Source: a virus
Strand: one strand, 5' to 3'
Length of the DNA: 26,160 nucleotides
IMG/VR virus record: IMGVR_UViG_3300044729_004026
Coordinates: 1-26,160 of that record
Positions 4,178-26,160 of this stretch are shown here, in pieces. Under the pieces are notes generated by a model. The model was not told the origin of the DNA, made no database searches, and saw only the letters and a program-made list of their open reading frames with translations. A program made the position numbers and the translations under genes. Within the stretch, counting starts at the first letter, position 1, and each line of letters starts with the position of its first letter.

Positions 4178-6211
4178 ATGTCAACGCCCCTTCCCAGCGC
4201 GGCAGTCCTGCCGGCGCAAACCCGGCTTGCGCGTTTTCAGCCGGCGACCTTCAAAGAAGACGCTCGCACGGTCGAAGTCGTCTGGTCAACCGGCGCGGAC
4301 GTGCCGCGCTTCGATCCCTGGGAAAACAAGCGCTATATCGAGCGACTCAACATGAGTCCCGAGGCGGTAAATCTTTCCCGGCTGAACAACGGCGCGCCCT
4401 TGCTGAACAGCCACGCGGCTTATCGGCTGGAAAACGTGCTGGGACGTGTCGAAAGCGCAGTCATCGACAGCGGCGAAGGCCGGGCGACAATCCGGTTTTC
4501 TGCGCGCGACGAAGTCGCTGCCATTCTGGCGGACGTGCGCGACGGGATTCTCTGCAACATCAGCGTCGGTTATTCGGTCGATGAAATCCGCGTGACGCAA
4601 AATCGCGACGGCCCGGACCTTTGGGAAGTGGTGCGGTGGACCCCGTTTGAACTGTCGCTGGTCGCCATCCCCGCCGATGCCGGGGCGCAAGTGCGTCAGG
4701 AAAACCGAAACTTCCCTGTCATTTTCATCCGAGCGTCCGATGACGCCGCAACCCAGGAGCAGACCATGACGACGACTCAGGCTGCGGTCGATCCGGCCGC
4801 CAACACCACCGCCAACACCCCTCACCCTGAGCTTGTCGAAGGGCGAAGCGGCGCTCAAACCTCAACCCCTTTTAGCAAAGACTACGCGGCGCAAATCCGC
4901 ACCGCAGCATTCGCTTGCGGTCTGACCATCGAAGACGCGATGGACGTCATGACCGAAACCCGCAGCTTGACAGAAGCGCGCGCGGCTTTGGTCGCTCGCG
5001 CGGAAGCCAAACAGCTTGCCAACCAAGGCGGTCGCCCGATCGGCAGCCCCGTGGCGCAATTGGTGGCGGATCATACCGACCCCGCCCAGGTTCGCAGCGC
5101 CATGGCAACCGCGCTGGCCACCCGCGCCAACCCCGATCTTGGCGATGCAGCGCGGCGCGACGCGGCTTCCCTCGGCCATGCCCGCAAATACATGACCATG
5201 GGCTTCGCGCAGATCTTCGCCGATCTCGCGCGGTCGCACGGCGAAGGCACCCTTGACCCGAGCAATAAGGGCGAATTCGCGCAAGCCCTGCAGGCCGGCC
5301 TGTTCTCCCGTGCGGGTTTCGCGCACACCACGTCTGATTTCAGCAATATCTTGTCATCGGCTCAAAACAAGATCTTGCTGCAGGTCTATCCGACCTTGCC
5401 AAAATCTTACACGGTCTGGGCGCAGCGGGTAGAGTTCAATGATTGGAAAGATCATAACTTCCTGCGTATGGGGGATTTCCCGTCCGCGATCGGGCGCGCG
5501 CCGGGCGAAGGCGGCGGCACGCAATACGGCACGATGGGCGAAAAGCTCGAAGTGATCCGGCCGGTCAATTACCTGCCGGGCATGTCGCTCACGCAGGAAG
5601 TGCTGGTCAATGATGATCTCGGCGCGTTCAACCAGCTCGGCGCGGCTATCGCGTCGCGCGCGGCAACCGATGAAAACACGCTTGTCTATAACGTGCTGCT
5701 GGGTGCGCCCGCCTTCACTGATGGCGACGGCCCGACTCTGCGCGAAGGATCGGCGCGCATGTTCACGACTGGGCGCGGCAACAAGGCCAGCACGGGAACT
5801 GCCATCACGCTGGCCGCCTTGCAACTCGCGCGGGGAGCCATTCGCAAACAAACCGGCTTGAACAACCAGCCGCTGAATTTGGATGCGAACATCATCATCT
5901 GCGGCGTGGATAAAGAATTGGAAGCGAATCAGCTGACCGTTCCTTTGACGCCCGCGCAGGCGACCAACGCCAACCCCTATTCGTCGCGCTTGACCGTAGT
6001 CAGTGACGTCAACGTCACGGGCAATGGCTGGTATCTCGGCTGCGCACCGGCCATGTCGCCCGTGGTTTACGGCTATGTGCGCGGGTTGAATGGTCCGATC
6101 ATCTCGACCGAAGTGGATTTCGACACCAAAGGCCTAAAACTGCAATTGCAGATGGCGTTTGGAGCCGGCGCGCGCGACTTCCGAGGCATGTACCGCAACC
6201 CCGGTGCTTAA
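4178..6211 (+). CDS. Prohead protease-scaffold-major capsid fusion
   Basis: The product has 677 residues in three parts. Residues about 18-178 are an HK97-type prohead serine protease, with candidate catalytic H79 (LLNSHAAYRL) and S129 (CNISVGYSV). Residues about 179-370 are a low-complexity then helical region suited to a scaffold or delta domain. Residues about 380-677 are the major capsid protein, with segments such as PVNYLPGMSLTQEVLVNDDLG and PALN-like FDTKGLKLQLQMAFGAGARD. Fused protease/capsid genes are a known phage architecture; the protease would cut itself and the scaffold out after prohead assembly. An internal ATG at 4766 with its own ribosome site may add a protease-free product. 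A host-type repeat sits in the linker at 4819-4850. Confidence 0.9.
   Translation: MSTPLPSAAVLPAQTRLARFQPATFKEDARTVEVVWSTGADVPRFDPWENKRYIERLNMSPEAVNLSRLNNGAPLLNSHAAYRLENVLGRVESAVIDSGEGRATIRFSARDEVAAILADVRDGILCNISVGYSVDEIRVTQNRDGPDLWEVVRWTPFELSLVAIPADAGAQVRQENRNFPVIFIRASDDAATQEQTMTTTQAAVDPAANTTANTPHPELVEGRSGAQTSTPFSKDYAAQIRTAAFACGLTIEDAMDVMTETRSLTEARAALVARAEAKQLANQGGRPIGSPVAQLVADHTDPAQVRSAMATALATRANPDLGDAARRDAASLGHARKYMTMGFAQIFADLARSHGEGTLDPSNKGEFAQALQAGLFSRAGFAHTTSDFSNILSSAQNKILLQVYPTLPKSYTVWAQRVEFNDWKDHNFLRMGDFPSAIGRAPGEGGGTQYGTMGEKLEVIRPVNYLPGMSLTQEVLVNDDLGAFNQLGAAIASRAATDENTLVYNVLLGAPAFTDGDGPTLREGSARMFTTGRGNKASTGTAITLAALQLARGAIRKQTGLNNQPLNLDANIIICGVDKELEANQLTVPLTPAQATNANPYSSRLTVVSDVNVTGNGWYLGCAPAMSPVVYGYVRGLNGPIISTEVDFDTKGLKLQLQMAFGAGARDFRGMYRNPGA
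4755..4768 (+). promoter_or_regulatory. Internal ribosome site and start (scaffold-capsid form)
   Basis: AGGAG at 4755-4759 lies six bases before an in-frame ATG at 4766, which is codon 197 of the fusion gene. This is a better ribosome site than that of the full-length start. Initiation here would give a 481-residue scaffold-plus-capsid protein without the protease, close in logic to lambda Nu3, which starts inside gene C in the same frame. The site falls in the linker after the protease fold, which is where such a start would be useful. That it is used is inference. Confidence 0.5.
4819..4850. repeat. Interspersed repeat inside the capsid-fusion linker
   Basis: The core CCCTGAGCTTGTCGAAGGG (4825-4843) matches a short imperfect palindrome that is widespread between genes in many proteobacterial chromosomes, especially Sphingomonadales and Caulobacterales. 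It reads as HPELVEG on this strand and FDKLR on the other. Here it is in frame and encodes PHPELVEGRS at residues 216-224, in a threonine/alanine-rich linker. The identification is from memory of the repeat, not from a search. Confidence 0.6.
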
Positions 6212-23701: not shown

Positions 23702-24211
23702 TCAGGTGTCAGGGGTCGCTTTCATAGCCCAGCCTCGAATCACGAACGCGCGTTCTGGCGCAATCGCGTTGCGTCCGGACAGCCAGTGACGCACGGTGCG
23801 GGGCTCAACCCCGAGGCGGCGCGCTAAGGGGGTTTGCCAGTTTGCCCCGAAGATCAGTTCTCCGCAGGCGCGCAGTTCCACCGCTTCCATCGGTTGCAGC
23901 GACAGTTCGTAAGCCGCTTGATCTGAGGCGTCATCGGCGATCGCCATAGCAGCGGCCGCGTCCCGCAACAGAGCGTCAATGCGCTCGTCAGCCGGGGGTG
24001 GGTCATCCCAACGCAAAACGCAGATTGTGGCTGCATCGCCGTCTTGATTGACAATATCAAGCGATTGGCCTGCATTGCCGCCGCGATCATCGTCGCACAC
24101 CATCAATTCGTCTTCGTCGAGATAAATCCGGGCAATGAAGCGAGGATATGCAGTGTGGACGATGTATTCGCGTTCGCCGTCGGGGTCTGCGCCAATGATC
24201 CAGGGAGACAT
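23702..24211 (-). CDS. HTH DNA-binding regulator
   Basis: 169 residues from ATG 24211; the TTG three bases further up is unlikely because AGGAG (24220-24224, minus strand) fits the ATG. The N-terminal 70 residues are acidic and strand-rich (EREYIVHTAYPRFIARIYLDEDELMV), a possible sensor or partner-binding part. The C-terminus has an HTH of phage-repressor type (ANWQTPLARRLGVEPRTVRH, then WLSGRNAIAPERAF). Its ribosome site overlaps the stop of the upstream gene, so the two form an operon. It may control the leftward accessory genes or phage development. Targets cannot be read. Confidence 0.65.
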   Translation of the reverse strand: MSPWIIGADPDGEREYIVHTAYPRFIARIYLDEDELMVCDDDRGGNAGQSLDIVNQDGDAATICVLRWDDPPPADERIDALLRDAAAAMAIADDASDQAAYELSLQPMEAVELRACGELIFGANWQTPLARRLGVEPRTVRHWLSGRNAIAPERAFVIRGWAMKATPDT

Positions 24212-24222
24212 CAAAAAAACTC

Positions 24223-24948: not shown

Positions 24949-25353
24949 TCAGCACCAGGATCGTCTTTTTTCGCCGCGATAAAGCCGGCCGTGACCGGCG
25001 GCGATCAGCATTTCTGCCAGATCGCGCCCGTCGATCAGCACGATCGCGAGTGTCCGGCGATAACGGTCCGTGCCCTTTTCTTGCAGCTCGATCCGCTGCG
25101 CGCCGGCCAACGCGCTGGCCGTGAAAGCCCGCGCCGCAACCGCCGCCATCGCTTCAGCCGCGCATTGCGCATGGCCCGGCATTTCGGGCGTATCAACGCC
25201 GATCACTCGAATGCTGCGCCCGGCCGCATCTATGATCGTGTCGCCGTCGATCGCGCGCCAGCCTGCACTAACGCCCGGCGCAACCGTCTCGGCGATCGGC
25301 GTCGGCGTGCTGCACCCTGTCAACACCAATAGAAGAAAAAGAGTCCGAATCAT
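24949..25353 (-). CDS. Lipoprotein thermonuclease (SNase-like)
   Basis: A 134-residue secreted nuclease from ATG 25353. Longer upstream readings lack a signal peptide in the right place and were not used. The N-terminus MIRTLFLLLVLTGC is a lipoprotein signal with lipid-bearing Cys14. The SNase fold follows with all three catalytic residues: R49 (IRVIGVD), E57 (DTPE) and R100 (DRYRRTLAIV), plus D36 and D54 for calcium. It would cut DNA or RNA outside the cytoplasm. No strong ribosome site was seen. It lies beside the attachment site, in the position of lysogenic-conversion genes. Confidence 0.88.
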   Translation of the reverse strand: MIRTLFLLLVLTGCSTPTPIAETVAPGVSAGWRAIDGDTIIDAAGRSIRVIGVDTPEMPGHAQCAAEAMAAVAARAFTASALAGAQRIELQEKGTDRYRRTLAIVLIDGRDLAEMLIAAGHGRLYRGEKRRSWC

Positions 25354-25453
25354 CACGCAAAGCGATAACCCACCGCGCCTGCATGATGCAAGAACAAAGG
25401 CTGATCGAAGTGTGCCATCAGTGCGCCAGTGTTTTGATCTTGTTCCGCCTCCT

Positions 25454-25517
25454 TTGACCGAATTTGGCGCGATTTCAGAAATCGCCGCTTGCGCAAAACA
25501 GCGCAAAAGCTTAGGAA
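25454..25517 (+). promoter_or_regulatory. Possible promoter for the tRNA 5' half
   Basis: Two weak arrangements exist: TTGACC (25454-25459) followed 17 bases on by AGAAAT, and TTGCGC (25489-25494) followed 17 bases on by TAGGAA (25512-25517). The second would start transcription about six bases before the tRNA-like sequence. A phage that supplies the 5' half of a tRNA on integration must also supply a promoter, so one is expected here. The matches are too weak to prove it. Confidence 0.25.
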
Positions 25518-25587
25518 TTCCCTCGCCTCGCGGGTGTAGCTCAATGGTAGAGCAGAAGCTTCCCAAGTTTTTGGTGTGGCGCGATTT
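25465..25587. repeat. Direct repeats flanking the attachment core
   Basis: TGGCGCGATTT occurs at 25465-25475 and 25577-25587 in the same orientation, on either side of the tRNA-like core. The left copy is also part of a perfect 8-bp inverted repeat (GCGATTTC-A-GAAATCGC, 25469-25485). Two GCGCAAAA copies lie at 25491-25498 and 25501-25508. These are candidates for integrase arm sites or excisionase sites. Confidence 0.4.
25530..25567 (+). other. attP core: 5' half of tRNA-Gly(CCC)
   Basis: Bases 25530-25567 read as tRNA-Gly positions 1 to 39: acceptor strand GCGGGTG, D-arm GCTC/GAGC with loop AATGGTA, anticodon arm GAAGC and loop TTCCCAA with anticodon CCC (25562-25564). After G at 25567 the tRNA match ends, and no T-arm, acceptor 3' strand or CCA follows. 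The integrase gene ends 40 bases further on. The likely reading is the integration core of the phage, identical to the 5' half of a host tRNA gene. Crossover would be at or near the anticodon loop. It is not a functional tRNA by itself. Confidence 0.8.
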
Positions 25588-25606
25588 TCTTAAATAAATC
25601 ATTGAG

Positions 25607-26160
25607 TTAGCCGGTTTTGCGGCGGGAGTGCGCCAATTGTGCGCCATGTTCGCGGGCTGTCATGGCGTCGGTTTTTTCCATGGCGTCCAGCACTCCGGCA
25701 GTATCGACGTGAGCATAGCGCATCGTCGATGTAGCGGACTGGTGGCCGAGCAGTTGCTGCGCCGCCAGCAGGCTGCCAGTTGCGCGGTGGACGCGGGTGG
25801 CGGCGGTGTGACGGAGATCGTGAAATCTGAGGTTCTGGATTCCGGCGTCTGCCAGGGCTTGCCGCCAGCGGCGGGCCCATCCGCCTGAGACGCTGAACGG
25901 GACCCAATCGCCGATTTTCACGCCCGCGCGGTTGCGGCCGGACTGATAGCACCAGACGCGGGTTTCGTGCCGGCCTTGCTGGCGGCGCAGCACTTGCAAC
26001 AGCCGATTGGTGATCGGTACGACGTGCGGTGCGCCGCCCGGTCGTTTGCTTTTCAAGCGGATATGGATTTGTCGCGCGGCGAAATCGACCTGGCTCCAGG
26101 TGAGGCCGATCGCGGCCGTCTCTCGCATTCCTGTTGCGGCGCAGAACGTGACCAGATCTT
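25607..26160 (-). CDS. int: Tyrosine integrase, C-terminal part (cut by the window edge)
   Basis: The frame is open from the right edge to the stop at 25607-25609, giving about 184 residues of the catalytic domain; the N-terminal arm- and core-binding domains lie outside. The ATG at 26128 is internal, because the frame continues upstream with DLVTFCAATG directly before MRETAAIGL. Catalytic residues are present in order: Arg in ATGMRE, a likely Lys in RLKSKRPGG, His and Arg in HDLRHT, His in LLGHQ, and the nucleophile Tyr in TMRYAHVD. It joins attP to the host tRNA site. Its 3' end faces attP, as in lambda. Confidence 0.93.
   Translation of the reverse strand, partial: DLVTFCAATGMRETAAIGLTWSQVDFAARQIHIRLKSKRPGGAPHVVPITNRLLQVLRRQQGRHETRVWCYQSGRNRAGVKIGDWVPFSVSGGWARRWRQALADAGIQNLRFHDLRHTAATRVHRATGSLLAAQQLLGHQSATSTMRYAHVDTAGVLDAMEKTDAMTAREHGAQLAHSRRKTG

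Follow-up and report, generated by a model that had tools for sequence, protein, structure and literature searches.

A probable phage attachment site with the 5′ half of tRNA-Gly(CCC) and a promoter-like sequence, and related integrases sampled with tRNA 5′ halves

Genes for tRNAs are favourite docking sites of phages, and the usual reason for the phage to carry the 3′ half of such a gene is that the host promoter then stays in charge. The locus analyzed here, in which the opposite half lies next to an integrase gene, raises the question of whether the tRNA is rebuilt upon integration and, if so, which promoter would drive it. The window, i.e. the entire stretch of DNA analyzed, is a complete virus record of 26,160 bp that is linear. 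Its region 25410–25646 is, with high probability, the complete attP of a temperate phage that rebuilds a host tRNA-Gly(CCC) with its own 5′ half and its own promoter. The features of this region are as follows.

25410–25428, plus strand: P-arm pair, putative arm-type integrase sites, GTGTGCCA-TCA-GTGCGCCA, 11-bp spacing (repeat search)
25489–25517, plus strand: promoter-like TTGCGC-N17-TAGGAA, 12 bp upstream of the first tRNA base, from which the phage is predicted to drive the rebuilt gene (motif count)
25530–25567, plus strand: 5′ part of tRNA-Gly(CCC), positions 1–39, the restoring half of attP (exact 38-mer, junction mapping)
25560–25566, plus strand: anticodon loop TTCCCAA, likely the 7-bp overlap (strand-exchange) region (sequence; identity ends 1 nt later)
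25607–26160, minus strand: tyrosine integrase, C-terminal 183 aa (Pfam PF00589, E = 1.1e-23)
25628–25646, plus strand: P′-arm pair, putative arm-type sites, GTGCGCCA-ATT-GTGCGCCA, inside the 3′ end of the integrase gene (repeat search)

Positions 25530–25567 (GCGGGTGTAGCTCAATGGTAGAGCAGAAGCTTCCCAAG) are identical, in 38 of 38 nucleotides, to the 5′ part (positions 1–39) of alphaproteobacterial tRNA-Gly(CCC), and the exact 38-mer was found in 50 of the 385 alphaproteobacterial genomes sampled. Compared with 30 sampled host genes, the identity always begins at tRNA position 1 (with at most one more nucleotide upstream) and ends after 38 nt, at standard position 39, i.e. one base beyond the anticodon loop; after G39, the window reads TTTTTGG as opposed to CTTACGACGAGGG in the host genes. 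The attP-attB identity reaches the 5′ end of the tRNA gene, and the tRNA 3′ half is absent from attP, given that the identity stops at position 39. These results confirm the first-pass annotation, which had proposed that attP carries the 5′ rather than the 3′ half and that the identity ends just past the anticodon loop. An intact tRNA-Gly gene across the site, which had been named as a finding that could speak against this proposal, is absent from the window: ARAGORN detected no complete tRNA in the 26,160 bp, and the match of the Rfam tRNA model at 25530–25592 scored 21.5 bits, under the cut-off of 29. On sequence grounds, an exact 38-nt match that ends at the first base of the gene is not a chance occurrence. 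From tyrosine-integrase practice (PMC8371274), we infer that the anticodon loop is likely the 7-bp overlap region and the flanking stem arms the core sites; the exact cut positions are predicted likewise. Two of the sampled genomes, G223 (contigs C16 and C31) and G149 (C196 and C224), each contain two exact copies of the 38-mer, which may represent either duplicated att sites or ordinary copies of the gene.

The integrase gene is directed toward the tRNA half; its stop, at 25607, is separated by 39 bp from the last identical tRNA base, so that the half adjoins the integrase as in lambda-type attP, and the N-terminus of the protein lies beyond the contig end. Putative arm-site pairs, also as in lambda-type attP, occur on either side of the core as 8-nt direct repeats 11 bp apart, at −120 and +98 relative to the first tRNA base. 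This arm-pair pattern occurs twice in 26,160 bp, both times at attP, and 0 times in 100 shuffles. Pairs of the CGGGACT type, likewise spaced 11 bp, occur in several relatives, located around −116 to −119 and around +100 to +107 relative to the first base of the tRNA; by the same test, both pairs are visible in some relatives and not in all. Because the paired arm sites flank the core at the spacing of the relatives, 25410–25646 is, judged by its sequence, a complete lambda-type attP with both arms and not a prophage end. An 11-bp direct repeat, TGGCGCGATTT, flanks the tRNA half (25465–25475 and 25577–25587) and may serve as an additional protein-binding site in attP. Among the other genes of the window, 24949–25347 (minus strand), just left of the P arm, encodes a protein resembling staphylococcal nuclease (PF00565, E = 4e-8) whose N-terminus is lipoprotein-like, 23702–24214 (minus strand) has a weak YdaS match (PF15943, below cut-off) and is a possible Cro-like regulator, and a single 677-aa frame at 4178–6211 (plus strand) fuses the prohead protease (PF04586) and the major capsid protein (PF25209).

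With such an attP, the integrase and the paired arm sites on both sides would bring about strand exchange in the anticodon loop of the host tRNA-Gly(CCC). Integration would join the phage P arm, promoter and 5′ half to the host 3′ half, yielding an intact tRNA gene that would be read from the phage side because attP carries positions 1–39 rather than the 3′ half, and a stump consisting of the host promoter and 5′ half would end up beside the integrase. Searches of viral contigs and IMG/VR with the attP junction and the Gly(CCC) 5′ half revealed neither a lysogen nor a host genome nor a close relative of the window phage: the exact junction was present in no other viral contig, and no Gly(CCC) 5′ half cut after position 39 was detected in IMG/VR besides that of the window. 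A search with the major capsid protein yielded no relatives, the arm-site pattern matched one contig in IMG/VR (L267, 6 kb), and a comparison with phage records at the DNA level matched only a complete tRNA-Gly(CCC) gene on a fecal scaffold; by eye, a frame resembling an integrase lies 3′ of this gene. The window integrase as the only query retrieved distant matches alone, and alignments were needed to gather relatives.

The attL and attR of related prophages, the check suggested in the first-pass annotation, were sought, and both junctions were identified for two related prophages, at tRNA-Pro in G017 and at tRNA-Arg in G405. On contig C2 of G017, an intact tRNA-Pro(TGG) gene is located at about 55.11–55.19 kb on the minus strand, its upstream side facing the prophage, and at about 103.8–104.9 kb there is an integrase with a tRNA 5′ half only, the upstream side of which faces host genes. 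Between the two copies, 40 nt of the tRNA and 26 nt upstream of it are identical, and the 49.8-kb prophage contains terminase, portal, capsid and tail genes between the junctions. Similarly, the left end of record G405 (39.9 kb) has a tRNA-Arg(CCT) 5′ half adjoining the integrase, at the right end phage DNA precedes an intact tRNA-Arg(CCT), and 42 nt are identical between the ends. A third case, G387, provides one junction (attR only), an intact tRNA-Pro(TGG) at the end far from the integrase. In two further contigs (L055 and L056), the end of a similar regulator-like protein is encoded upstream of the half (by eye), consistent with a host gene beside the stump. Thus, the joining of a host 3′ half to a phage 5′ half that had been predicted for the window phage holds in G017 and G405, with the host 5′ stump beside the integrase at the other end; for the window phage in its own host, the same behaviour is expected from these relatives.

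The tRNA-Pro(TGG)-type pattern has two matches in G017, the phage-fed intact gene and the stump, so the cell seems to depend on the gene fed by the phage, although a tRNA with an atypical sequence could have escaped the pattern. No empty site for this prophage was found in the family of G017, whose genus is represented by G017 alone. Inside the same prophage, near the rebuilt tRNA-Pro (L152, about 1390–1600), a stretch looks by eye like what remains of the C-terminus of another, dissimilar integrase; an earlier element inserted at this tRNA may have left it behind.

These junctions and the arm sites bear on the other possible readings of the window. The contig could end within an integrated prophage, at attL, with 25530–25567 as the leftover 5′ half of the host and the sequence to its left as host DNA, and indeed the record is linear and the nuclease-like gene just left of the site is of a kind common in cells too. 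However, head and tail genes of a phage occupy 25 kb on the left side, where terminase, portal, capsid, tape-measure and lysis genes were identified, and the P-arm pair at 25410–25428 matches the P′-arm pair within the integrase at the spacing of the relatives' attP; we consider this reading very unlikely and rejected it given the presence of the P-arm sites. Even less probable is tRNA-dependent lysogeny, known in mycobacteriophages (PMC10865867), whereby the tRNA would not be rebuilt and a complete phage tRNA-Gly would be located elsewhere, for which the unsequenced part of the window phage could have room. That system combines a short core, a tRNA that is not rebuilt and a phage tRNA of the same isotype, whereas here the core is 38 bp compared to about 8–17 bp and reaches the first base of the gene, the junctions of the relatives rebuild the tRNA, and the 26 kb sequenced of this incomplete genome contain no tRNA. 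Phages do acquire tRNA fragments, and the half tRNA might be a captured relic with no role in integration, but it adjoins the integrase between paired arm sites, has its ends precisely at base 1 and immediately beyond the anticodon loop, and is matched by the same layout for other tRNAs in the relatives, which makes this the least probable of the readings considered.

Under the preferred reading, a complete attP that rebuilds the tRNA, the phage would have to supply a promoter, as the first-pass annotation had pointed out. We counted motifs of the form TTGNNN, 16–18 nt, TANNNN that end 5–21 nt before tRNA position 1. The motif was present in 11 of 17 phage-side upstream sequences compared to 0.43 expected (maximum of 3 in 1000 dinucleotide shuffles), an excess that is somewhat flattered because the motif was defined after viewing these sequences; among the host tRNA-Gly genes that served as the control, and that had been seen beforehand only in part, it was present at a comparable rate, in 16 of 30 (1.06 expected). 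For comparison, 1.4% of random phage 90-mers contain the motif, and the chance rate for the window alone is 1.6%. The candidate promoter of the window is weak against the E. coli consensus, and 6 of the 17 relatives lack the motif as defined. In G017, the host −10 region is retained on the phage side within the identity block, with the phage's own −35 at a 17-bp spacing. A promoter-like sequence upstream of the half, at a frequency far above chance, argues for a phage-supplied promoter, whose function in the window is predicted.

The same arrangement recurs among the nearest named integrases. Sphingopyxis phage VSN-002 has a tRNA-Pro(TGG) 5′ half in its attP, and a plasmid prophage of Sphingomonas parapaucimobilis and Synechococcus phage Ssp-JY40 each have a tRNA-Val(TAC) 5′ half, in all three cases with no 3′ half; the half has its first base about 45–80 bp beyond the end of the integrase gene and is oriented as in the window. 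The VSN-002 integrase (L044, 2443–3561; MZ127829 gene_22) is annotated 'telomere resolvase', although its sequence and attP context identify it as a tyrosine integrase. The integrase and attP of Ssp-JY40 (L046) group with those of sphingomonad-type phages, and its cyanobacterial host label deserves a check. Many further 5′ halves, for Pro(TGG), Val(TAC) and Arg(CCT), were found in IMG/VR contigs.

Of 42 integrases compared in a tree of their catalytic domains, 22, that of the window included, are of the 5′-half-only type (Pro-TGG, Val-TAC, Arg-CCT and Gly-CCC), a proportion that says nothing on the overall frequency of the trait, the sample having been chosen by similarity to 5′-half integrases. 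The tree requires 3 label changes compared to a shuffle mean of 14.2, and none of 500 shuffles was as low. The integrases nearest to that of the window are at most 48% identical to it; its branch is long and its placement unsure, the nearest row of the tree being L067, with a 5′-half tRNA-Pro attP (43% identity). A separate clade (L063, L064 and L184) has tRNA-Gly(CCC) 3′ halves. Two contigs, L052 and L167, have a tRNA-Pro(TGG) 3′ half just after the integrase, reversed relative to it, and are nested among 5′-half relatives with strong support; therefore, the core orientation changed inside the group. The near-palindromic anticodon stem-loop would ease such a reversal.

Taken at the group level, we think it reasonably probable that a mostly alphaproteobacterial group of integrases is largely committed to tRNA 5′ halves and phage promoters, taking over likely essential tRNAs (Pro-TGG and Val-TAC), with at least one reversal of the core with respect to the arm sites (in L052 and L167). 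This group breaks the 3′-half rule, and lysogens are therefore predicted to run the tRNA from a virus promoter. A corollary, if this is true, is that the displaced tRNA promoter would fire antisense into the integrase in the lysogen. The wider value would lie in the group-level pattern and the predicted phage-borne promoters, which open to test the tuning of host tRNA levels by prophages, the cost of losing the prophage promoter (a form of addiction) and the manner in which an attP switches the half that it carries.

In the classical case, phages and ICEs that enter tRNA genes by means of a tyrosine integrase have the tRNA 3′ half in attP (PMC8371274). They share with the window type the tyrosine integrase, the crossover in the anticodon loop and the rebuilding of an intact tRNA at one junction, whereas the window attP has the opposite half, and the gene, once rebuilt, is separated from its original promoter and relies on upstream DNA of the element. 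Displacement of the 5′ side is an already known, minority type: in Sinorhizobium meliloti, 9 of 88 tRNA-borne elements match the tRNA 5′ end (PMC11476347), and integration of the archaeal plasmid pTN3 separates tRNA-Leu from its promoter (PMC5495485). As described in the available passages of these two accounts, the tRNA 5′ side is duplicated or displaced and the tRNA is left whole, as in the window type; the same passages contain no promoter analysis, no trait-defined integrase group and no attP arm anatomy. The first-pass annotation, which had called 5′ displacement described but uncommon, is thus upheld overall (PMC8371274; 9 of 88 elements in PMC11476347) but not for this integrase group, where it is the commonest arrangement sampled. 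A group of integrases largely committed to 5′ halves, with phage-borne promoters and a reversal of core orientation, looks unreported in the literature searched, a search that most subscription papers fell outside. In tRNA-dependent lysogeny, described for Fionnbharth and others (PMC10865867), the lysogen likewise depends on a phage-driven tRNA, but in that system the phage destroys the tRNA and makes up for it with a separate tRNA gene of its own, whereas the window type would rebuild the tRNA.
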